This document shows positions 1 to 33,385 of a stretch of 64,000 bases of DNA, piece by piece. The first letter of the stretch is position 1; each line of letters starts with the position of its first letter. The DNA is from Amyloporia xantha (taxonomy: Eukaryota; Basidiomycota; Agaricomycetes; Polyporales; Adustoporiaceae): contig JAYKKR010000008.1 in NCBI GenBank assembly GCA_036971615.1, positions 620,001 through 684,000 on the forward strand, read 5' to 3'. The position numbers were made by a program, and so were the translations under genes. Under the pieces are notes generated by a model, which was given only the letters and a program-made list of their open reading frames with translations, was not told the DNA's origin and did not search any database.

Positions 1-1292
1 TTTGTCTTTCACATTATCTCGCGCTAAGTCATGGATCAGATACCAACATAGGCAAAGACATCATTACGCGCATAATTCCTCTCATTTCTTTTCTGAGGAC
101 TTATATTCCCATACGCATCTCAGTCCTCTTCTCCAGTGCCATTCTGCAAGAGTGTGGCCTGCCGACAGAGATAGACTGCAGAGATCTTGACAAGTCAGAC
201 GCATTCTTCGATCAGATTAAAGAGAGGTATGTGCTCTTTACTCAGAACAGCCCTGTCGTCTGATTTCACATACAGAACCTTTGCCGGACTGACGCGAAAT
301 CGTGCTCTATGGGCATCATGCCTAGTTCCTGTGAACGACAATGCTGAGGTATTGTCTCTTCATATCATGGGTAGCAATCTACTCCATGCCACCGCCTCCT
401 CCACGTCTCGTCCACCTACGCCTCTGAGCGACTCGGAGGATGAGAAAGACCACCACGATGAGTTTTCTGATAGCCATGATGATCTTTTTGTGCCCACTCT
501 TGCAGTCGCGAACCAGTTCCAAAATCCTGACTCCGCATCGCCCAACTATCATGTTCTGCGCACTCTGTTTGATTTCGATGCTCCTGCTAATCGTCATATT
601 CCTTATCCTACTGGCAACCCTGAGGCGCATGGTCAGTGGACAAACAAAGAGCGCCTTGGTGCAAGTCAGGCATATATTGTGCATACTCTGGATGACGCCG
701 CGCAATCAGTGAGTAGCTCATACATTCTTCTATTTTCTTTCTCAACATGATACGTCTTGCAGATCAATGACCTGTATTCTTCTGATGGGGTCAAAACCTT
801 TGCTGAAGACTATGTGCGTTTGGAGCATGACATGTTGCAAGAGTAAGTCATTCGCCGCATTCTTGTTCATTATCTCACCATCTACTTAGGCAAGAGATTG
901 ACATACGAGACAAGAAGGACAAATTGATGGCTTTCATAGCGTGCGACATGCCTCAAAACATGCGTGAAAGTTTGATGCGCAACATTCGCACCGCACTTGC
1001 TGTCGGTACAAAGGAAGGTTATTCCTTGCAGGATATGGACAGTTCCCATCAGGATGGGAGTGCAGAGAGGCGGTTTCCTTGCCTTCATTTCTCCTGGTAT
1101 GCGCGCAACATCACAAGGGTTTGTCTTTCCTATATGCATTACATGTTGTAAGATTGATTATTTCTACAGGGTGACGATGCTCCAAAAGATACACATCCCC
1201 TGCATCTGCGTCGTGCAAATGCCTCTCACACAAATCACCAACAATTTGGTGCTTATGTTTCCAAGGAGCTTCTATGCAATCAAGCTGAGTAC
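1..1292 (+). repeat. Left arm of 1292-bp inverted repeat
   Basis: This stretch reads as the reverse complement of 4320-5611; paired positions sum to 5612. The reading frames in the two arms translate identically and no mismatch was seen where bases were compared. The match stops at 1292/4320. The left arm begins at the window edge, so the repeat may extend further out. The arm is coding: it holds internal exons of the dioxygenase gene. The two arms are 3027 bp apart. Confidence 0.95.
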
Positions 1293-1822
1293 GACAATCT
1301 CTGTAACTCATTCCAAGAATTTTTTGAGTGGATACGTATGAAGGTGTGTTGCTTGCTTCTCCTTTCTGATATATTGAGTACTTAGCCATTGGCATTAGCT
1401 TGAGAGACGTCTCCCAGGGATTTGCAAGTCACTGGAGGCTTTTGTTGAATTTCTGCCAGGACGCGAGGTCTCTCCATGCCATCCTTTCAGTGGATTTGTC
1501 CTCAACATCAATGTGGCGACCAATGCTCACAGAGATGTGAAAGATCTGGAAGCCTGCCTTGTCCTTCCCATTGGAGATTTTGAAGGTGGAGAGCTCTGTT
1601 TGGTTGAAGGGACTTGTTTTGCCTTTGCAGAATGGCGATTTGGTGGTATTTCTCTCAAAGCGTCTCACTCACTTCAATTTGCATTTTAAGGGCTGTAGGG
1701 CATCCATGGTTCTTCACTCAGACGGAGCTGGAGTCAAGTACAGTGAGAACATGAGTGGTTGGATGGAGCATAAGGATATGAGGTCGTCTTTACATTTGAG
1801 TTGGCGTTTGTCGAATTTGTAG
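1..1822 (+). pseudogene. TET/JBP-like 2-oxoglutarate/Fe(II) dioxygenase, 5' end outside window, one frameshift
   Basis: The exons join cleanly at about 1-226, 276-708, 763-842, 890-1118, 1170-1343 and 1399-1822. The last exon has the double-stranded beta-helix signature: HRD (codons at 1528-1536, metal-binding HxD), then GGELCLVE, then THFN with the distal iron-binding His at 1670-1672, then CRAS with the likely 2-oxoglutarate Arg at 1697-1699. Spacing and context match the TET/JBP class of DNA-base oxygenases that expanded in mushrooms together with transposons. The frame slips by one base near 1606-1612, between the two halves of the catalytic domain, so the copy is broken unless this is a sequencing error. 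The long N-terminal part (acidic and Ser-rich near 400-490) is not a domain I recognise. A prolyl-hydroxylase-like role is the main alternative. Confidence 0.68.
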
Positions 1823-1896
1823 TGATTTGTTTGTGCGCACAAACAAATGGAATGTCATGGCGCTTGTTGGCGACACTTCTCACCCTGTCTGTCACA

Positions 1897-3843
1897 ATGA
1901 CTGCCACACGTCGATCCTCTCGTAAAAACGGTACACAGGATAAGGATCCTCCCTCTACTCCTAGTCCCAATCCTTCTGCTTCTGCTTCTTCTAAATCACG
2001 AGCTTCTCAGAGTCAAAGCAGCAGCCGCAGTAGCAAAACTGTCCAAGAAGCGACAGCTTCAGAAGTAACTTCAGATCTGACAGCCAACTTTACGGCAAAG
2101 GAGAAGGCCCTCTTGAAGAAGCTTCAAGCCAAAAGCAACGGAGCAGCTGCTGCGTTGTTGAAGGCGCAAGATGAAGGTATGTCGGTGTTGTTGCCATGGG
2201 AGAATCATTGGCTGACGTCCTCATAGACATCCGCAAGCGCAATGCTGCACTTCTAGAAGAGGAAGATACTGACAATGACAATGAAAACGGTTCACAGGCC
2301 AAGAAGAAGCAGAAGACGCAAGTCTCAGCAAGGTTGGACGATGAAGAACGTCAGCTCGCTGCTAGTCTGGGTAATCAAGACATCTCCGACAAAGGTGATG
2401 TATCCTGTCATTCATATATCATTGCGAATGAAGCTTCAACTATACACAGAGGGCTCAGATGCCGATCATGCGAGACAGAGCAGTGAGGAGAAGGAGAAAG
2501 ATGAGATAGAAATAGAGCCTTACGGGGAAGACGATCCTGACCACCCGAACAACTTAGCCTTTGATGAGGACAATGGGGTATGTACTCACTCTTTTGCACT
2601 TACAACATTATCAACACCTGTCAATAGGTTCAAGTTCGAGATCCCAAACAAGACAAGTCTAGAGGTGGAAGGCGTTCTCATTCTGTCACATCTCGTGCTT
2701 CCTCTATGGCATCTTCTAGGGCCTCCTCTCCTACTGCCACGCCCCGTGGTAGCAGTAAAGTGGTATTGACGGACTTTCCTTCTGACATACGTAGCCTGGC
2801 CAATTTGGCCAAGGCTTGTACGCGTGAGGCCATCGCTATTCAGAATGGCTTTCCAGGAGATATCGACACATTCTGCTGGGAGTCTATTCAGGTCGCAGGA
2901 AGAAGTATGGCCAATATGGAGGATGCGGTAGAGGCTGCCAATGTCGATGTGGATCTCCGTGAGCTCCTCATCACCTATGTTGAGTCAAGTTATCGTCTCT
3001 TTGGCCAGCTATACTAATGACTATTCAAAGGCAAGCTATGCCATCACTGGCTTACGTGGCGAACTCAAGAGCAAGTCCAAGTTGAAGATAGCTGGCCACT
3101 ATGGGATTTCCACCAACACGTCTGCCATAGAGGTTCAGAAGCTGGTGCGCTGGCTGAGAGAGCGCTCTAACTTCATGTTTGGAGGCATGGATCTCAAGGT
3201 ATGTCTGCCTACTTCAATTGAGCAGTCGTCTAAGTTTCATCTACAGAATCAGAAGGTCGATCGTCAGCAGCCCTTTTGCCATCCCATAATCACAGACATG
3301 ATTAGTCAACAGTGGTTTGGCAAGGGCAAGGCTGACGCTCAAGCGTATAAGAAGATGGTTGCACAAAAGAAGATCTTTGGCCGTATCATTGTTCTTACAG
3401 TCACTGCTGTACGTTTCCTGTGCCATCTGATCAGATAAGTTTACTGATATGTATATTCCAGGTTGAATGCGCCATCATGGAGTTTGAGACAGGCGTACAT
3501 CATAAAGTCGCATTCAGTGAAGAAACAATGACTGCAAGGTGACCTTTTAGCTATGCAACGATGATAGAAATCTTTACTCACTGATAGCTTAGATACAGCT
3601 TTCACTGGCAGTCGTGGTCTAAACTGGAGAGAGACTCTCCCAAATGGGCTCTCATGTTGGAAAAGAAGATGTTTATGGAGATTGTGTACGTGCGGATTGT
3701 TCATTTTATATTTGGCTAATTATATGATCAGAAACTCTTTGAACAAGTCCCACCTACATGTGGATGCCGACAATGGGGACCTTGATGATTTGGACTTTGC
3801 TCAGCTTGAAGCGTCTGCTGAGGCTTCTGTCGCTGACAGCTAG
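1897..3843 (+). CDS. DUF6532-type protein associated with the dioxygenase element
   Basis: Nine exons join in frame: 1897-2176, 2227-2394, 2450-2577, 2628-2988, 3031-3198, 3247-3408, 3462-3538, 3593-3685 and 3732-3843. The N-terminal third is low complexity: Ser/Thr-rich, then charged, with a basic KKKQK run and acidic stretches, as in a nuclear protein. The C-terminal half carries features of DUF6532, common in Agaricomycetes: an ISQQWFGKG segment, a hydrophobic helix ending in TVTAVECAIMEFETG, and a YSFHW segment. The function is unknown. The gene starts 75 bp after the dioxygenase stop on the same strand and ends about 480 bp before the element end, so the two appear to be cargo of one mobile element. 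No break was seen. Exon 4 may use a weak GTTGAG donor. Confidence 0.72.
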
Positions 3844-3929
3844 ATTTGCTGGCATAGATTTCAGTCTCTTTCGTATTAATTGCTTGTCGCACCATTATCA
3901 ATATATTGCAGTTTCTATCCTATAATTCA

Positions 3930-4321
3930 TATCACTCTAAGAACACTCTAAATGCTCGCTCTAAATGCTCGGAGAGCAAAAGTTGAATACACTGAGCCAA
4001 CTTTAAGGCAACTCTGAAAGCCTCTGCTAGCAGATCTATGATGGCTTTGAGAGTGTATCATATTACCCTTGAAGTGATTGTAGACTGCTTGGAGAGCGTA
4101 TCATATCAGCCTTGAAGTGATTGGAGACTACTTTTAGGCCCTTCCGAAAGGGCTCTGAGATTGCTCTGAGTCTGCTCTGGAGTGACCTGAGAAAATATTC
4201 TCATGTCAACTAAGTTTAAGAGCACTCTGGCTACTCTGAGTTCTCTAAAATCTTTCAAATCTCTAGGATGCTCTAGGATAGTCTCAGAGCAGCCTGGGAC
4301 CAATATGGTTTTTCCTGATGT
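3930..4321 (+). repeat. Subterminal repeat tract and 3' end of a DNA transposon
   Basis: Noncoding tract packed with CTCTGAG/GAGAG-type words in both directions. It includes a 13-bp direct repeat (CTCTAAATGCTCG, from about 3952) and two diverged 43-bp units starting at 4049 and 4092. It ends in GTTTTTCCTGATGT (4308-4321), the same 14 bases that end the Plavaka-type copy at 12677-12690 and another element at 33372-33385. Dense short subterminal repeats plus a fixed end are typical of transposase binding regions. The matching left end is outside the window. Confidence 0.7.
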
Positions 4322-5611
4322 ACTCAGCTTGATTGCATAGAAGCTCCTTGGAAACATAAGCACCAAATTGTTGGTGATTTGTGTGAGAGGCATTTGCACG
4401 ACGCAGATGCAGGGGATGTGTATCTTTTGGAGCATCGTCACCCTGTAGAAATAATCAATCTTACAACATGTAATGCATATAGGAAAGACAAACCCTTGTG
4501 ATGTTGCGCGCATACCAGGAGAAATGAAGGCAAGGAAACCGCCTCTCTGCACTCCCATCCTGATGGGAACTGTCCATATCCTGCAAGGAATAACCTTCCT
4601 TTGTACCGACAGCAAGTGCGGTGCGAATGTTGCGCATCAAACTTTCACGCATGTTTTGAGGCATGTCGCACGCTATGAAAGCCATCAATTTGTCCTTCTT
4701 GTCTCGTATGTCAATCTCTTGCCTAAGTAGATGGTGAGATAATGAACAAGAATGCGGCGAATGACTTACTCTTGCAACATGTCATGCTCCAAACGCACAT
4801 AGTCTTCAGCAAAGGTTTTGACCCCATCAGAAGAATACAGGTCATTGATCTGCAAGACGTATCATGTTGAGAAAGAAAATAGAAGAATGTATGAGCTACT
4901 CACTGATTGCGCGGCGTCATCCAGAGTATGCACAATATATGCCTGACTTGCACCAAGGCGCTCTTTGTTTGTCCACTGACCATGCGCCTCAGGGTTGCCA
5001 GTAGGATAAGGAATATGACGATTAGCAGGAGCATCGAAATCAAACAGAGTGCGCAGAACATGATAGTTGGGCGATGCGGAGTCAGGATTTTGGAACTGGT
5101 TCGCGACTGCAAGAGTGGGCACAAAAAGATCATCATGGCTATCAGAAAACTCATCGTGGTGGTCTTTCTCATCCTCCGAGTCGCTCAGAGGCGTAGGTGG
5201 ACGAGACGTGGAGGAGGCGGTGGCATGGAGTAGATTGCTACCCATGATATGAAGAGACAATACCTCAGCATTGTCGTTCACAGGAACTAGGCATGATGCC
5301 CATAGAGCACGATTTCGCGTCAGTCCGGCAAAGGTTCTGTATGTGAAATCAGACGACAGGGCTGTTCTGAGTAAAGAGCACATACCTCTCTTTAATCTGA
5401 TCGAAGAATGCGTCTGACTTGTCAAGATCTCTGCAGTCTATCTCTGTCGGCAGGCCACACTCTTGCAGAATGGCACTGGAGAAGAGGACTGAGATGCGTA
5501 TGGGAATATAAGTCCTCAGAAAAGAAATGAGAGGAATTATGCGCGTAATGATGTCTTTGCCTATGTTGGTATCTGATCCATGACTTAGCGCGAGATAATG
5601 TGAAAGACAAA
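4320..5611 (-). repeat. Right arm of 1292-bp inverted repeat
   Basis: This is the inverted copy of 1-1292. Its inner edge touches the GTTTTTCCTGATGT terminal motif of the plus-strand element. Beyond 5611 the same minus-strand gene continues to its start near 7042, so this arm belongs to a second, interrupted copy of the dioxygenase gene. Confidence 0.95.
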
Positions 5612-6475
5612 TAGATGAGTGGCTTACGCTCTTGGGGAAAGCGGAGTGCATTGCAAATGGCTTGGATTACCTCATCCTTTGTTCGCCCTAGGTCTCTGGG
5701 CATATCTCTAGCCGCTATGACCATGAGAAGATAAATAGATCCTGGAAAAGAGCTGCAATCAGTGAAAATGAGATATTGTAGATACACGACATACCTGCGC
5801 TTGCCAAAGCAGCGAACTTGTAGCCCTGAGCAACCCAATTGCCAAACGTCCACTTTGACGGCGCGCTGGGATGCCCCTTGACCTTGACCATCCACAATCG
5901 CTGTGTCGTCATCTTGGGATCATGTGCTGTGATGCTAGATCAATAGAAAATGTCGTCAAATCTCATGGAGGGTGATAGAAATTAAGAACACACCTATGCA
6001 CCTTAGCCGCAAGCTCAATCTTGGAAACTAGTCCCAGGAATGATAGGCCAGTACTCATTCCCTCAAAATAGTTGACGCGTTTGACCAAGGAAAACAGGTC
6101 GTTAGTAACATAGACAGAATTGCCTGCGTGGAGGCCCCGACGCCCTCCACCATGTTTTTCAGACTCAACATCCACTGAAGACAGTCCTCACTCTGGACGT
6201 TGCTCTTGGAGCCCTGTGCCAGATGAGACATCAGCTCCTGGGCTTGGTCACCTGCCGCGCCTCCCGCAACAGCAGGCTGGGGACTTATCCTCCAGAACCT
6301 GCCACCCTCCCAAGCCACACGCGCCTCATCATCAGGAGGAACCACTAAGGAACCCCCCCGTGGGTTGATTGGCAATGGTGTCCCTCCACGAGTGTCACAA
6401 TTCGACTTGCGAGGTTTGTGCCTCTTCGGAGGAGGCTCATCCGGATCACCCGCAACGCCGGTGCGAGCGCGTGTG

Positions 6476-6767
6476 CGAGAGGGAGTGCTAGAGCGCATCC
6501 TAGCGACCTCTTCATCCCTGGCTTCTACAGGAAGGGGAGGCCCTTGCTCCTAGTAGCATAGAATACAGATGTAGTCAGTCGAAATGAGGAGAAATCGGCT
6601 GTGGAACTTACGCCGACAGTCTGAGAGGGAGTGCTAGAATGCATCCTAGCGACCTCTTCATCCCTGGCTTCTACAGGGAGGGGAGGCCCTTGCTCCTAGT
6701 AGCATAGAATACAGATGTAGTCAGTCGAAATGAGGAGAAATCGGCTGTGGAACTTACGACAGTCTGA
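6476..6767 (-). repeat. 146-bp tandem exon-plus-intron duplication
   Basis: Two adjacent units of 146 bp are nearly identical. Their match words begin at 6485 and 6631 and end around AACTTACG near 6612 and 6758. Read on the minus strand, each unit contains one whole small exon (EQGPPLPVEARDEEVARM, then HSSTPS or RSSTPS) with its splice acceptor and the flanking intron. A complete exon of the dioxygenase N-terminus has therefore been duplicated in tandem. A 3-base difference separates the units at the exon end. Confidence 0.85.
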
Positions 6768-7125
6768 GTCCCCCTATTGGCCTCTATCTGTTCAGGAGCC
6801 ACACTGGGGCCACGGGATGGGGCCGGAGTCAAGTAAGCATGGCTGTTGGACACAGCTGAGACATTAGGGGTAGCCAAGGGAGTCACTCCAGACAGAGAAG
6901 TCGAGGTGGCAGCATCGAGGTTGTTGAGGACAGTAAGCACAGCAGGTGGGAGAGTGTGCGGAGGCTGAGACCTTACAAACTCAATGAGAACAGCAAGGTC
7001 TGAGTCCGAGAGCTCCAACGAATCTGGAGTGCCGCCAGCCATGCCAGAGAGTAGGTGAAAACGCGAGGAACGACGACGGCGCAGGTGAACGTCGAATGCG
7101 CAAAGTGAACTTCGAACGCGCAAAG

Positions 7126-7183
7126 GCCTTCCCAAAATGGGTGCCAGTTTGTCGCGACAAACTGGCACCCATTTTGGGAAGGC
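7126..7183. repeat. Perfect 58-bp palindrome with TGTCGCGACA core
   Basis: The two 29-base arms meet with no spacer at 7154/7155; the outermost matching bases are 7126 and 7183. The centre is TTGTCGCGACAA. It lies 84 bp upstream of the minus-strand dioxygenase start, at the edge of the pyrimidine-rich repeat field. It may be a promoter palindrome of the element, two terminal repeats joined head to head, or a cruciform-forming junction. Confidence 0.95.
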
Positions 7184-7259
7184 AGTCTCTCGCTGCTAAT
7201 TCAATGCGCTCCCTTACCTCTCGTCCCCGCCGTTCTGGCCTCTTCGACACTTAATCTCT

Positions 7260-9300
7260 ACACTACTGACACTCTCCATGCCGACGCGCTCTCACCTTCA
7301 AGTTTGCTCCTGGCCACTGCTGTCCTCGACGCTCTCGTCGACGACGCGGGCTCCCCGCCGACATGCTCAAGTTCAACACCCCGGCTCCGTTCTCACCCCT
7401 TTGGTGATGTTCTCCGCGCCGACGCGGTCTCCGCACCCGGCTGAGGTTGAGGCAAAGTGGTTAGAACAGCGTTGGTATGAGCAGCAAAGGTGCGTCCCCT
7501 GTGCTGCTTCTAGCAAACCCGCTGTACTCACCCCCTGCCAGACCTTGCGATGGCGCGGTTGTCACCCGCCCCGCCCACGACTTCGCTTTGCGCCGCTGTT
7601 CCTGCTCAGCCCCCGCCGCGGCCGCTGTCCTAAGCAGCTTGCGCTGGCTCCTCCCCGACGCTCTGGCTCGACCTGATCATTCTCCTCGCACCGCTACTCC
7701 CCGCCGCTCCTACGACCTTCGCTCTCCTACGACCTTCGCTCTCCGCCAACAGTCTCGCACTGCCGACATTCTCGAACTGCCGACGTTCGCTCCCCGCTGA
7801 TGCAACCTCGCCCCACCAACGCCTGCTGGACAGCACTGTGTGGGAGCCGCGCACGCTGCTGTCATTGCCACACAGCTGTTCTCGCCCTGCCGCCGTTCTC
7901 GCCCCGCCGTCGATCTCGCCCCACCGTCGATCTCGCCCCGCCGTCGATCGTGCCCCGCCGACGTCGTCTCGCACCAACGACGTTCTCGCCACCCCTGCTG
8001 CTCTCTTCGCGCCCCCCGCTGCTCTCTTCGCGCCCTCCCGCTGCTTTCTTTGCCACACAGCCTTTTGCACCCCGCCGACGTCCTCTCGCCGTTCTCGCCC
8101 CACCGCCGTTCTCGCCCCACCGCTGTTCTCGCCCTGCCGTCGATCTCGCCCCGCCGTCGATCGTGCCCCGCCGACGTCCTCTCGCACCAACGGCCTTTCG
8201 CATCGACATTCTCGCGGCAGGCATCGCTCACCGTCACTTACCAAGAGGGGAGGGAGAAGGGATCAGGGAGAGAGCAGGAGGAAATTGGGAGAAGGAGAGG
8301 AGAGGAGAGGAGAAGAGAAGAGAGAGAACACATCCGAGTCTCCAGGTCCTTCCTCCCCCGCTTCTCGCACCACAGCCTCATGCTTGTACGCGCTGGCGGG
8401 GTCTCCTCCCGCCAACCTCATCTCGCTCTGCCGCTGCGCTCTTCGCGCCCCGCTGACGTCCTCTTGTCCTGCCGACGTTTGCGCCCGACCAATGTTTGCG
8501 CCCCGCCGACTGCTCTTCACTTTCTCGCCACACAGCCAATCGCGCCCGACGACCTCATCGCCCCGTTCTCGCCACACCGCCATGGTTTCCCCGACCCTCG
8601 CCCAACCCACCTGCGCGGCCGACGTCCTCTTGCCACACAGCCGATCGCGCCCCGCCATTCTCATCGCTCCGTTCTCGCCACACCGCCATGCGTGCCCGCC
8701 GACGTTCGCGCCCGACAAACGTTCGCGCCCGACAAACGTTCTCGCCCGACGAACGTTCTCGCCCGACAAACGTTCTCGCAGCGAACAGCGCTCACCGTCG
8801 CTCACGAAGAGGGGAGAGGGAGGGGAGGGAGAAGGGAGAGAGGGCGAGCAAAGAGGGAGAGGGTCTGCGCTGCCCCCGCTCTCGCTCGCGCCGACTCCCC
8901 ACCCTGCCCCGACACTGATCTCATGCAGCGTCTTGTCCGAATGCCTGGGCGAGCGCTGTGCGAACAACGTGCGCTCCGAACCGGCCGACTGGGGGTATGA
9001 GGGCTGGGGGCTGTGGCGGTGGTCATTGTTCGCCCATCTGGCGGTCTCGGCATGCTCGTCGTCTTCCGCGTCGAAAATCGTGCGAATGGGCTGCATCGGG
9101 CGGTTACGCCTCTCGCGACCCGAAGATCTTGCTCTTGGACGCTGCTCGCCGACGTGCTCTCGCCCCGCCTCTCGTCCCGCCGACTCTGTTGCATCGCCGA
9201 CTCGCTCTTCTCTTCACATTGATGCCCTCTCCTCCCGCCGACAATGTTCCGTCCTTGAAGTTCTCTCCTCTACGCTTGTTTCAATTCATGGTTTGTTCGC
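7260..9300 (+). repeat. Pyrimidine-rich degenerate repeat field, no convincing gene
   Basis: About 2 kb is built from shuffled words such as CTCGCCCCGCCGTCGATC, GACGTTCTCGCC and GCCACACAGC. The densest arrays are at 7880-8170 and 8440-8780. A clear 17-bp tandem array (TTCGCGCCCGACAAACG type) runs 8705-8772. Two longer related blocks, each ending in GAAGAGGGGAG or CAAGAGGGGAG followed by a purine run, start near 8226 and 8791. All three frames stay open for hundreds of codons on one or both strands, as expected from composition. It may be an expanded transposon leader or a decayed retroelement. Confidence 0.7.
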
Positions 9301-9330
9301 TCACTCATGCATGTCGATCACTAGCTCTAG

Positions 9331-9350
9331 ACTAGATTACGTAATCTAGT
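9331..9350. repeat. Perfect 20-bp palindrome
   Basis: ACTAGATTAC is followed at once by its reverse complement GTAATCTAGT. It lies 83 bp before the transposase start codon at 9434, and could be a regulatory or transposase-binding site of the Plavaka-type element. Confidence 0.6.
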
Positions 9351-9433
9351 TGCGGTGTATAGGCAATGTTATCATGTTTGTGCCCATCCACTCTGTGCGC
9401 CTTCATCTGCCTGATTGAAGATCTTCATCCACA

Positions 9434-12400
9434 ATGAACCTTGTCGATGACGAAAGAATCTGTCCTGCCTGTGGGCGCAGCTTTGCCACCAGAAAATCGT
9501 GCAACATGCACATGTCGCGGGCCCAATCTTGTGCTTGGTATCGTCGAGGCAAACTGGCCGACCTGGGCCCCTTGGATCTTGAAGGGGAAGGAGGCGATAT
9601 AGAGGCTCTTGAAGATGTGCAGACCCCTGGAGAGCAATCTTCCGATGAAGAAGATTTGGATGACATCTTCGATGAGGGCAGGGACCGCGAGCCTTTCCAT
9701 TTCATTCCCATCGAGAATCTCCCTCCGCCTCATGAATACGGGATTGGGGAGGCAGGACCAGGGCCTTCCACCGTGGCACATAATCACCAGGTCCAACATC
9801 GTGCACTCGACGACGATGATGATACACGGGTGGAGGATGAGGATGGGAGTGTGGGGAAGGTCATTCGCATGAATGATAACCTTCATAGGCGGTGGCATAA
9901 GCTGTTCGGTGCGGGAGATGGAGATGCTATGGACGTGGATGAAGACATAGAGGAGCCATCTTTCTTCCATCCTTTTGCATCCGAACTCGATTGGCGCATT
10001 GCGAATTGGATGGTCAAGGACAATCCTGGTCACAACGCATTCAATCGGTTACTATCCATTCCTGGGGTAAGTGAGACAAACTCTGTTTAACAGTCCGAAG
10101 AGACTGATGTCCATTCAGGTCAAGGAGAAACTGGGGCTCTCTTACGACAATACAAGAGCTCTCCACCAAATAGTCGACAGCATACCTGATAGGGCTGGCC
10201 AATGGCATGTCAAGCACCTCACATTTCAAGATCGCCCACATGAAATTCATACAATCCGTTATCGTCACATTCTAGCTGCCATTCGCTCTTTGTGGGGAGA
10301 CCCATCGCTCTCAAAATACATCGTATATCGTCCCAAGAAAGTATTCTCCGATGCATCAAGGGAGAATAGGATATACAATGAGATGTGGACAGGTAGTTGG
10401 TGGCACGCGGTCCAGGTAAGTCAGCAGTATGTATATATCAAAACTGGTTTGTTTAAGCTGTCTTGCAGAGTCGCTTACCCCCTGGGGCTACGTTGGCCCC
10501 TCTTATTATCGCTACCGACAAAACCCAGCTCACTCAGTTCACTGGAGGCAAGTCGGCCTATCCAGTCTATCTGACGCTGGGCAATCTTCCAAAATCTGTG
10601 CGACGCAAGCCTTCCCTCCATGCATGTGTCTTGCTGGGGTATCTTTCGGTGGACAAAATCACAAGAGAGAAGCTTACGCAACAGGAACAGCGAGCACGTA
10701 ATCAACGCCTGTTCCACGAGTCGATGCGGGTCATTTTGGAGCCCTTGTTGGAAGCAGGGAAGCATGGCGTCGAAATGACTGGAGGAGATGGAGCAACGCG
10801 AAAGGTCTTTCCCATCATTGCTGCTTATGTTGCCGACTACCCAGAGCAATGCTTGGTGACGTGTTCAAAATACGGAACATGTCCCAAGTGTCGCTGTCCT
10901 GCTAGCGATCTGGGAAACCCAAAGGCGCATCCTCTTCGCACGCAAGCTTGGACACTGGAAGTCATTCAGGAGGCGAGGAAAGCTACAGAGAGTGTGGCTC
11001 AGTTTCACAAGATATGCATGGAGCAAGACGTCTCAGGAAGTGTTTACAAACCTTTCTGGCATGGATTCCCTCACACCGACATTCACCTGTCTATCACCCC
11101 GATGTACTCCACCAGCTTTATCAAGGTGTCTTCAAGCATCTTGTGAATTGGTGCACACGCATCATGAGCGCTGAAGAATTGGACTATCGTATTCGCTCAC
11201 TTCCTCCTGCGTATGGTGCTCGCCATTTCAAGAATGGCATTTCGGCACTATCTCAGATATCTGGTACAGAGCGAAAGCAGATGGCCAAGATTCTGCTGGG
11301 ATGTCTTGTCGGAGTGTTCCCCAAGAAAGCTCTCCTTGCCTGTCGCGCGCTGTTGGACTTCATTTATCTTGCTCAGTACAGCACACACGACGACATTACT
11401 CTGGGCTATTTGCAAGACGCGTTGGACACGTTTCAAAAAACAAGTCCTATTTCATCGACACCGGCGTACGCGAAGACATGAACATCCCCAAGTTCCATTC
11501 TCTCATGCACTATATTCAGTCGATTCGCATGCTGGGCACAACCGACAATTACAACACAGAAATGTTCGAACGTCTGCATATTGACTTTGCAAAGGAGGGC
11601 TGGCGCGCTTCCAATCACAGAGACGAATTCCCTCAAATGACTCTCTGGCTGTCTCGCCAGGAAAAGATGGCCGCATTCCAGAACTTCATCACCTGGAAGG
11701 AGTCTTTGCAACCACCTTCAGATGCCCGCCAAACCGCTTTGAAGTCTAAAGGGAGTGGACTGGCTATTTCTCTGCCGAAATTCCCCACTCAGTCCAGGAA
11801 ACCTATTGCGCATATAGAGCATCAACACCATGCTCCAGGTTTCTCACTCCGCCTCAAAGAGTATCTCAATTCCTTGCTACAGCATTCTATTTCCAACAGA
11901 AATGCGATTCTACACAGTCTTCCATTTGATCGCCTCGACATCTACCACACTCTCAAATTTCATCCTCCTAATCTTGAAGACGGAGAAGAGGAATGTGATG
12001 TCCTCAAGGCAGTTCCATCCACCAGTCAAAATGCTGGACGTTTTGATACGGCTGTCATTTTACACAATGAAGATGCCGAATCAACAGGGCTAGAAGGTGA
12101 GACATATACATCATTGATATTAACCGATTCTAATCAAGCTTTAAAGGAACACGTATTGGACGGCTTCGAGTTATTTTCAAATTGCCAGAACATCTGGACA
12201 ATGCAAATGCACCATCGTTTTGGCCCAAATGTCCGCTGGCCTATGTGGAATGGTATACTAATCTGAAACCGGCTGCAGAGCCTGCTCACAATATGTATGT
12301 TGTGAAACAGCTGCTTAGACCAGATGGATCTCCTGCGGGTGCAATTATTCCTCTCACCAGTATCCGTCAGAGCTGTATGTTGATTCCAAACTATGGTAAT

Positions 12401-12460
12401 AAGGCTCAACCCGACTTGACAAAGGAAAATGTCTTAGATACGTCTTCTAGCTTTTTTTGA
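9434..12460 (+). pseudogene. Plavaka-type transposase, three frameshifts
   Basis: The protein opens with a C2H2-like finger (CPACGRSFATRK, then HMSRAQSC), followed by an acidic linker. The typical core of mushroom Plavaka transposases comes next: RHILAAIRSLWGDP, NEMWTGSWWHAVQ, PLIIATDKTQLTQFTGGKSA, a CSKYGTCPKCRCP knuckle, PDVLHQLYQGVFKHLV, and FIDTGVREDMNIPKFHSL then NYNTEMFERLHIDFAKEGW. Exons 9434-10066, 10119-10415 and 10469 onward are joined by GTAAG introns. The frame then breaks three times by one base: near 11099-11102 (in ACCCCGATG), at an A6 run near 11433-11438, and near 12174-12182. Two of the three are at or beside short homopolymers, so sequencing error is possible, but a dead copy is the simpler reading. 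Confidence 0.82.
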
Positions 12461-12509
12461 ATAGTTGGACGTCTTTGTATACATACAAAACCATCTGGTA
12501 ATAATATCC

Positions 12510-12690
12510 TGCTTTGTAAGACCGTGAGAGACCCTCAGAGCAGTTATAGAAGTGCGCATACCTCCCAGAGCACATGAGAGTGACTGAGGCTACTCGCAAT
12601 TGCTCTGAGCTAACCTTATGTGCTCTGAGAAATCCGCATTATCTGAGAGTAATCTAGAGTACCCTAGAGAAAAAGTGTTTTTCCTGATGT
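12510..12690 (+). repeat. Subterminal repeats and right end of the Plavaka-type element
   Basis: After the transposase stop, CTCTGAG, CTCAGAG and GAGAG words recur through 12520-12670. The tract ends in GTTTTTCCTGATGT (12677-12690). The glutathione S-transferase relic begins directly after it. A matching left end (ACATCAGGAAAAAC) was not found by eye between 7000 and 9434, so the left side may be truncated. Confidence 0.65.
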
Positions 12691-33065: not shown

Positions 33066-33371
33066 CATAATAATGTATATCTCTTTGTTGTATATACTGT
33101 CAATTAATATGTACATTTCGCCATTCAATACTATCCATTGTGAACAAGAATATGAGGAGTAAAGCGGTGCAATACATGAGCCAAATATTTGAAACCCATG
33201 CTGCTGAATTGTGGGAAATTTACCTGAATAAACTGCGTTTTTCGGGAGGGGGACCGCAGAATCCGCAACAATAGGTAGTAATTATGGATAATGGCCGGAA
33301 TGGAGATAATTGTATCTATTATCTGGAATTTAGCTACATTGTGGTACATTCCTCATAAATTACACTGGGAG

Positions 33372-33385
33372 GTTTTTCCTGATGT
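33372..33385 (+). mobile_element. Third GTTTTTCCTGATGT terminus
   Basis: The same 14 bases end the elements at 4321 and 12690. Here the motif overlaps the first bases of duplicated segment copy 1: the copy 1/copy 2 match begins at 33384/52932 and the flank to the left differs. An element of this terminal family therefore inserted at, or truncated, the left edge of copy 1. Its left end was not identified. Confidence 0.6.

Follow-up and report, generated by a model that had tools for sequence, protein, structure and literature searches.

Near the left edge of a 64,000-nt stretch of Amyloporia xantha DNA (contig JAYKKR010000008.1, positions 620,001 to 684,000, C59:620001-684000 in our searches; hereafter the window), the gene of a TET/JBP-like dioxygenase is followed by that of a DUF6532 protein. 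An earlier note on this DNA had proposed the two as the cargo of a mobile element that could link DNA-base oxidation to an unknown nuclear factor, and as a candidate for an undescribed system, and the locus raises the question of what carries the pair and with which partner DUF6532 belongs. The two genes are part of a Plavaka-type (PlavakaB) DNA transposon of 11.39 kb, in which the order is Plavaka transposase (minus strand), GC-rich block, dioxygenase (plus) and DUF6532 (plus). It is the Plavaka transposase that DUF6532 accompanies; the TET-like enzyme has been added to the two.

The reading that we favour, with somewhat more confidence than doubt, is that of a PlavakaB transposon which encodes its transposase, a TET/JBP-type enzyme that would oxidise 5-methylcytosine (5mC) and thereby counter silencing, and DUF6532 as a likely DNA-binding second protein of the transposase.

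Structure and copies of the element

Genome searches were performed in the organism's own genome (46.8 Mb). Positions 1-4321 of the window were found at eight full-length places at about 100% identity, the window's own place included, and in further diverged copies. Nine copies were compared by their flanks; a tenth, at C60, is left-truncated and was left out of the copy counts. All nine have sharp ends, CATCAGGAAAAAC on the left and GTTTTTCCTGATG on the right, and measure 11.09-11.40 kb. These 13-bp terminal inverted repeats, present in 9/9 copies, fit the PlavakaB termini 5'-CATCA..TGATG-3'. Identical 2-bp flanks were likewise found in every copy, with a dinucleotide that differs between copies (TA for C59, C32, C16 and C41, TG for C55, TC for C21, AG for C27, TT for C45 and AA for C23), which fits the PlavakaB target-site duplication (TSD) of 2 or 3 bp. 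The mobile element of the earlier note is borne out by these termini, TSDs and near-identical copies, but it is 11.39 kb long and carries a Plavaka transposase, whose gene in this copy falls to the left of the window.

The spliced transposase model of the sibling copy C21 matched PF18759 with an E value of 1.8e-62 (211.9 bits, cut-off 26.3). The main frame is single in C55 (615 codons) and in C32 (603 codons); CPKC and HSLMH, picked out by eye in the C55 frame, are candidates for the PlavakaB motifs C(2)C and H(3-4)H, which lie between the second D and the last E. A KDZ transposon, the initial guess from the TET link, was ruled out by the 2-bp TSD (7-8 bp in KDZ) together with the Plavaka transposase. 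An 8-bp TSD suggested by overlapping match ends was ruled out on reading the flanks, which gave TA.

The copy in the window interrupts an older one that runs on the opposite strand; the insertion, with duplication of TA, is in the older copy's dioxygenase gene. The features of both are collected in Table 1, in which exon borders are models obtained by script plus reading of the sequence. A tandem duplication of about 149 bp lies within the enzyme gene of the older copy (6477-6768). At C60:139084-139103 a right end (...CCTGATG) runs straight into the interior of an adjacent copy, so that the two stand in tandem in a truncated or recombined form.

Table 1. Features of the two nested copies; positions are those of the window unless a genome position is given.
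Feature	Position	Strand	Remarks
Younger Plavaka-type element, right 4,320 bp	1..4320	+	Termini, TSD TA/TA, copies elsewhere
Younger element, whole	Genome C59:612931-624320, 11,390 bp		Left 7,070 bp outside the window
TET/JBP-like dioxygenase gene, 3' part	1..1822	+	Multi-exon; start codon about 1.4 kb left of the window by model
Dioxygenase last exon, window copy	1399-1822	+	Frameshifted by a 2-bp deletion relative to siblings
HRDVKD	1528..1545	+	Fe ligands H and D; Asp at H+5 aligned with TET2 Asn1387
THFNLHFKGCRAS (THFN...CRAS)	1667..1705	+	Third Fe ligand H and 2-oxoglutarate-binding R (presumed); intact siblings' frame
DUF6532 gene	1897..3843	+	Nine-exon model, 512 aa
DUF6532 exons	1897-2176, 2227-2394, 2450-2577, 2628-2978, 3031-3198, 3247-3408, 3462-3538, 3593-3685, 3732-3843	+	Read from sequence
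Subterminal CTCTRR-type repeats	3946..4290	+	Present in the element's left 200 bp too
Right terminal inverted repeat GTTTTTCCTGATG	4308..4320	+	
TA target-site duplication	4321..4322	+	Partner TA immediately left of the element, outside the window
Older copy, right piece	4321..12689	-	Own TSD TC/TC; other piece C59:609899-612930
GC-/CpG-rich repeat block, older copy	7290..9090	.	Between divergent genes; mapped from sibling C21 3601-5400
Plavaka transposase gene, older copy	9434..12460	+	Divergent from its dioxygenase gene; end approximate; stops or unmodelled introns split the frame

The dioxygenase

The dioxygenase is about 900 codons long in the final model; the model of C16 is short, at 733 aa. 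The HxD...H...R active site is invariant in 9/9 aligned sequences, among proteins that are 28-35% alike overall. HRD was found in all nine, and the HxE of PE-type enzymes was not present in them. The arginine of THFNLHFKGCRAS presumably binds 2-oxoglutarate, a role that we carry over from the TET/JBP family. Counted from the histidine of HRD, position H+5 is Asp and position H+11 is Val in the window family, which does not match the AG-type pattern (Gly/Ser at H+5, Asp at H+11).

The predicted fold of a relative came closest to CcTET, NgTET1, TET2 and CMD1, with CcTET as the best structural match, and the model was closer to TET/JBP than to other 2-oxoglutarate oxygenases; its structural alignments with NgTET1, TET2 and CMD1 showed 10-15% identity. 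The closest database proteins of the host are mushroom proteins. A fold search of a viral library placed phage and giant-virus JBP/TET proteins among the best named rows and was not used as evidence. The TET/JBP-like identity read in the earlier note from HRD, THFN and CRAS motifs (present at 1528 and 1667) holds in that the best domain and fold matches are TET/JBP, though the domain score lies under the Pfam cut-off.

In NgTET1, TET2 and CMD1 an Asn or Asp holds the N4 of 5mC, according to the portions of PMC11040006 consulted. The Asp that the window family has at this position suggests that its dioxygenase may act on 5mC.

DUF6532 and its neighbours

The DUF6532 assignment proved firm: the gene product of sibling C21 matched PF20149 over positions 2-192 of 194 (E 1.1e-36, 127 bits against a cut-off of 24). 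Between the dioxygenase stop in the siblings' frame (1822) and the DUF6532 start (1897) 74 bp were measured, where 75 had been given, both genes lying on the plus strand; DUF6532 ends at 3843 and the element at 4320, shortly after, in the repeat-rich end already described in the earlier note.

Own-genome scans gave 41 DUF6532 matches, merged to 32 loci, and 114 Tet_JBP matches, 79 of them over the cut-off (strong matches). Plavaka matches numbered at least 139, of which a subset was typed (69 loci once merged). The catalytic half of the enzyme was matched 113 times, and the 29 places that cover the catalytic exon were used. A TET-like gene was found no more than 3 kb upstream of 20 of the 32 DUF6532 loci, against 0.12 expected under uniform placement. 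In all 20 pairs the genes are on the same strand, with the enzyme upstream and a midpoint spacing of 1.5-1.9 kb. The pair occurs in four diverged groups, delimited by reading identities, without a tree, and identity between their enzymes falls to 68-72% over the catalytic exon and to about 60% over the preceding one; because the loci are copies, such lineages are the fair count. Of two three-gene elements examined in other groups, that at C9 has both termini and TT/TT flanks, and that at C49 has both termini with unlike flanks (GC, CT). A protein model of Gymnopilus junonius (1,475 aa) contains an enzyme match (E 5.7e-24) followed by DUF6532 (E 2.6e-21), with the Pfam Tet_JBP part at E 0.023 only; it is either a true fusion or two adjacent genes annotated together. 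The neighbourhood thus recurs elsewhere, at these 20 loci and in this one protein model. Neither outcome that the earlier note had named as refuting, a dioxygenase best matched outside TET/JBP or a pair never adjacent elsewhere, was obtained.

Five of the 12 DUF6532 loci that lack the enzyme have a divergent Plavaka transposase at 3.2-6.0 kb. A TET motif was sought in two of the five, at C3 and C20, and none was found in either, transposase and DUF6532 being present in both. At C3 both termini are present, with CT as the duplicated target; the left end of the C20 element was not found. None of the 79 strong Tet_JBP matches has DUF6532 within 3 kb, and one has it within 5 kb. This single case (C55:1974344 and C55:1978922) may be a separate capture or a chance neighbour. 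Several strong matches (e.g. on C26, C41, C51, C22 and C4) lie about 2 kb from KDZ transposases. The three strong matches that were read have Ser at H+5 and Asp at H+11.

Since DUF6532 occurs in Plavaka elements without a TET motif and beside none of the 79 strong matches, it follows the Plavaka transposase and not TET as such. The dedicated two-gene oxidation cargo was not upheld by these findings. A related explanation makes DUF6532 the partner of the dioxygenase instead of the transposase, bringing the enzyme to the element as a dedicated anti-silencing module. The constant strand, order and spacing of all 20 pairs, the Gymnopilus model that joins both and the low ratios of non-synonymous to synonymous divergence (dN/dS) in the enzyme and in DUF6532 (see below) would agree with it, but it has to be set against the two elements read that have DUF6532 beside Plavaka and no TET motif, the three further loci with a divergent Plavaka transposase and no TET-like match, and the 0/79 count. 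We consider this explanation unlikely and retain DUF6532 as a companion of the transposase.

Methylation-type changes in the copies

Seven near-identical copies were compared after leaving out substitutions within five columns of a gap and 312 gap columns. Of the variable columns, 300/341 lie left of element position 5600. The substitutions clear of gaps numbered 24, including 19 transitions; 12 of the 24 fall at CpG, which makes up 10.6% of positions (p 1.5e-6), and all 12 run from a majority C/G to T/A. These CpG changes are the pattern left by deamination of 5mC. Base-calling errors at methylated CpG could add to them and would likewise imply methylation. The pattern suggests that copies of the element are methylated in the host.

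These changes bear on the substrate of the enzyme. A target other than 5mC (thymine, N6-methyladenine (6mA) or RNA), with the enzyme marking the element's DNA rather than demethylating it, would suit a sequence so far from the characterised TETs, and CcTET is active on both 5mC and 6mA (PMC11040006, consulted in part). The window family, however, has Asp at H+5 as in NgTET1 and CMD1, where CcTET has Gly; the three strong TET matches read in this genome differ from it at H+5 and H+11; and the CpG-type changes among the copies indicate that 5mC is there for the enzyme to act on. Oxidation of another target is, in our estimate, quite improbable, and 5mC is kept as the predicted substrate.

Selection on the two genes

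Between C21 and C41 the catalytic half of the enzyme gave a dN of 0.103 and a dS of 0.94 (ratio 0.109). For DUF6532 the same pair gave a dN of 0.0195 and a dS of 0.121 (ratio 0.161), with 28 synonymous and 18 non-synonymous changes over 395 codons, C41 exon 4 being left out; the C16 rows were dropped for loss of frame. Values with C9 and C49 were not used, since dS either was saturated (at least 1.6) or could not be computed. In 8/9 copies the last enzyme exon is open, C16 having different last few residues. That both genes are passengers, hitch-hiking on a transposon that moves without them, is very hard to credit: one Plavaka element lacks TET yet has its two ends and a target duplication, and the enzyme gene of the window copy is broken, but against this stand dN/dS values of 0.11 and 0.16 and an active site invariant among such divergent proteins.

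The divergence of C21 from C41 and C16 is mosaic: the left part is 94-96% identical, and C41 has a dS of 0.94 in the enzyme and 0.12 in DUF6532. This is probably due to recombination between element groups.

Proposed mechanism

The 1.8-kb block between the divergent genes contains 17-bp repeats and has a GC content of 0.64-0.67 and an observed/expected CpG ratio of 1.05-1.23; it is a possible two-way promoter. CTCTRR, a motif chosen post hoc from inspection of the element ends, was counted in sibling C21 12 plus 1 times over the 460 bp at the right end and 4 plus 2 times over the 200 bp at the left end; in the gene part it occurs about 0.43 times per 460 bp and strand. DUF6532 is likely the second, DNA-binding protein of the transposase, the basis being its company and these repeats.

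In the mechanism that we propose, CpG methylation by the host would fall on the element, and the element's enzyme would oxidise 5mC on the element's own DNA; the most plausible site is the CpG-rich block that separates the divergent genes. This oxidation would reopen the block as a promoter and keep the transposase and the cargo genes in expression. DUF6532, which usually accompanies the transposase, may bind the repeat-rich ends or help or direct transposition. An anti-silencing role for transposon TETs in general was proposed in PMC12730594, as far as the portions consulted go.

Several observations weigh against this mechanism. Most copies have a split transposase frame, among them that of the window (453 + 241 codons), and the window's dioxygenase gene is the only one of nine with a frameshifted last exon. 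The Tet_JBP score of 28-30.9 bits is under the Pfam cut-off of 34.9 (E 1.5e-6 in sibling C21, and 1.8e-7). The fold model has a mean predicted local distance difference test value (pLDDT) of 52, with 64-93 at residues 221-330, 35-53 at 331-400 and 42-86 at 401-530 (blocks of ten). A sequence search of the PDB with full-length relatives gave no match, and the trimmed domain gave eight chance-level matches (E 0.27-0.44), three to TET2 constructs and five unrelated. For DUF6532 the structure model was unusable (pLDDT 38) and a profile search of the PDB returned a single chance match (E 0.82). The copies are non-independent observations. No TET-like gene was found within 3 kb of 12/32 DUF6532 loci, one of which (C37:177k) has the enzyme 3.9 kb off, and DUF6532 is absent within 3 kb of 9/29 TET-like loci, a number of which are truncated or split copies.

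A bolder extension, which we hold to be doubtful, would combine DUF6532 with the HxD dioxygenase in a DNA demethylation machine of two proteins, guided by sequence. DUF6532 would read CTCTRR and thereby direct an oxidase specific for 5mC to the CpG-rich promoter block; a selfish element would then have rebuilt a TET pathway like that of animals and supplied the targeting factor itself.

Comparison with known systems

VANC of the plant VANDAL transposons is a sequence-specific anti-silencing protein and no TET-type oxidase. The TnpA and TnpD pair of En/Spm (CACTA) offers a second element protein and subterminal repeats as points of resemblance. VANC is a transposon-encoded counter to methylation silencing (PMC5735166), the role predicted for the present enzyme, and En/Spm belongs to a related transposase clade (PMC12730594).

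Transposons of the TET+ PlavakaB kind have been published from Agaricus bisporus and Gymnopus confluens (Kojima 2025, PMC12730594). In the portions of that article consulted, they share with the present element a Plavaka transposase, CATCA..TGATG termini, a 2-3 bp TSD and an internal TET/JBP gene, but their enzyme is of the PE type, with HxE, whereas that of the window has HxD and Asp at H+5. CcTET and the AG-type TETs of Kyakuja (KDZ) share the TET/JBP fold, HxD and carriage by a transposon (same source, in part). The AG type differs from the window family in having Gly/Ser instead of Asp at H+5, Asp instead of Val at H+11, and KDZ instead of Plavaka as carrier. NgTET1, TET2 and CMD1 share the fold and the Asn/Asp at the 5mC-N4 position (PMC11040006, in the portions consulted) and are not transposon genes.

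Because TET-bearing Plavaka elements are already in print (PMC12730594, in part), the claim of an undescribed system does not hold for the whole of it; the DUF6532 partner is unreported in the literature found. The main text of PMC12730594, searched whole with the supplements outside the scope, does not mention DUF6532 ("DUF" matches an author name only). In the literature on DUF6532/PF20149, as far as consulted, the domain is listed beside Plavaka and KDZ among the domains of two Ganoderma genomes. As far as our searches show, two things are new: a Plavaka-borne enzyme with HxD and Asp(H+5), and the regular presence of DUF6532 next to it.

DUF6532, a domain of unknown function, is hereby tied to one transposon lineage, which gives it a concrete, testable context. 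Two kinds of TET with different base-reading residues in one genome would, if the prediction holds, allow 5mC-only and 5mC/6mA chemistry to be compared. Protection of the carriers by transposon TETs is testable here, because some Plavaka elements of the genome have the enzyme and others lack it, and because methylation-type changes are seen in near-identical copies.

Related termini elsewhere in the genome

TTTTTCCTGATG was found at 466 places in the genome (231 + 235); the reversed control gave 1 + 4. Many of the 100 places listed are paired on opposite strands at distances of 1.4-3 kb (e.g. C4:117402-119038 and C7:242282-243882). They probably bound numerous shorter elements that are non-autonomous and have PlavakaB ends. 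The last 170 bp or so of the element alone matched, at 85-88%, at C25:329299, C23:835379, C11:193203, C9:326246, C34:553769, C22:263147 and C5:200487; these seven are likely ends of shorter elements, and those on C5 and C11 have a second terminus 2.7 kb away. Within the window, another terminus-like site is located at 33366-33384, ending in TTTTTCCTGATG and followed by TAGCTGTG.

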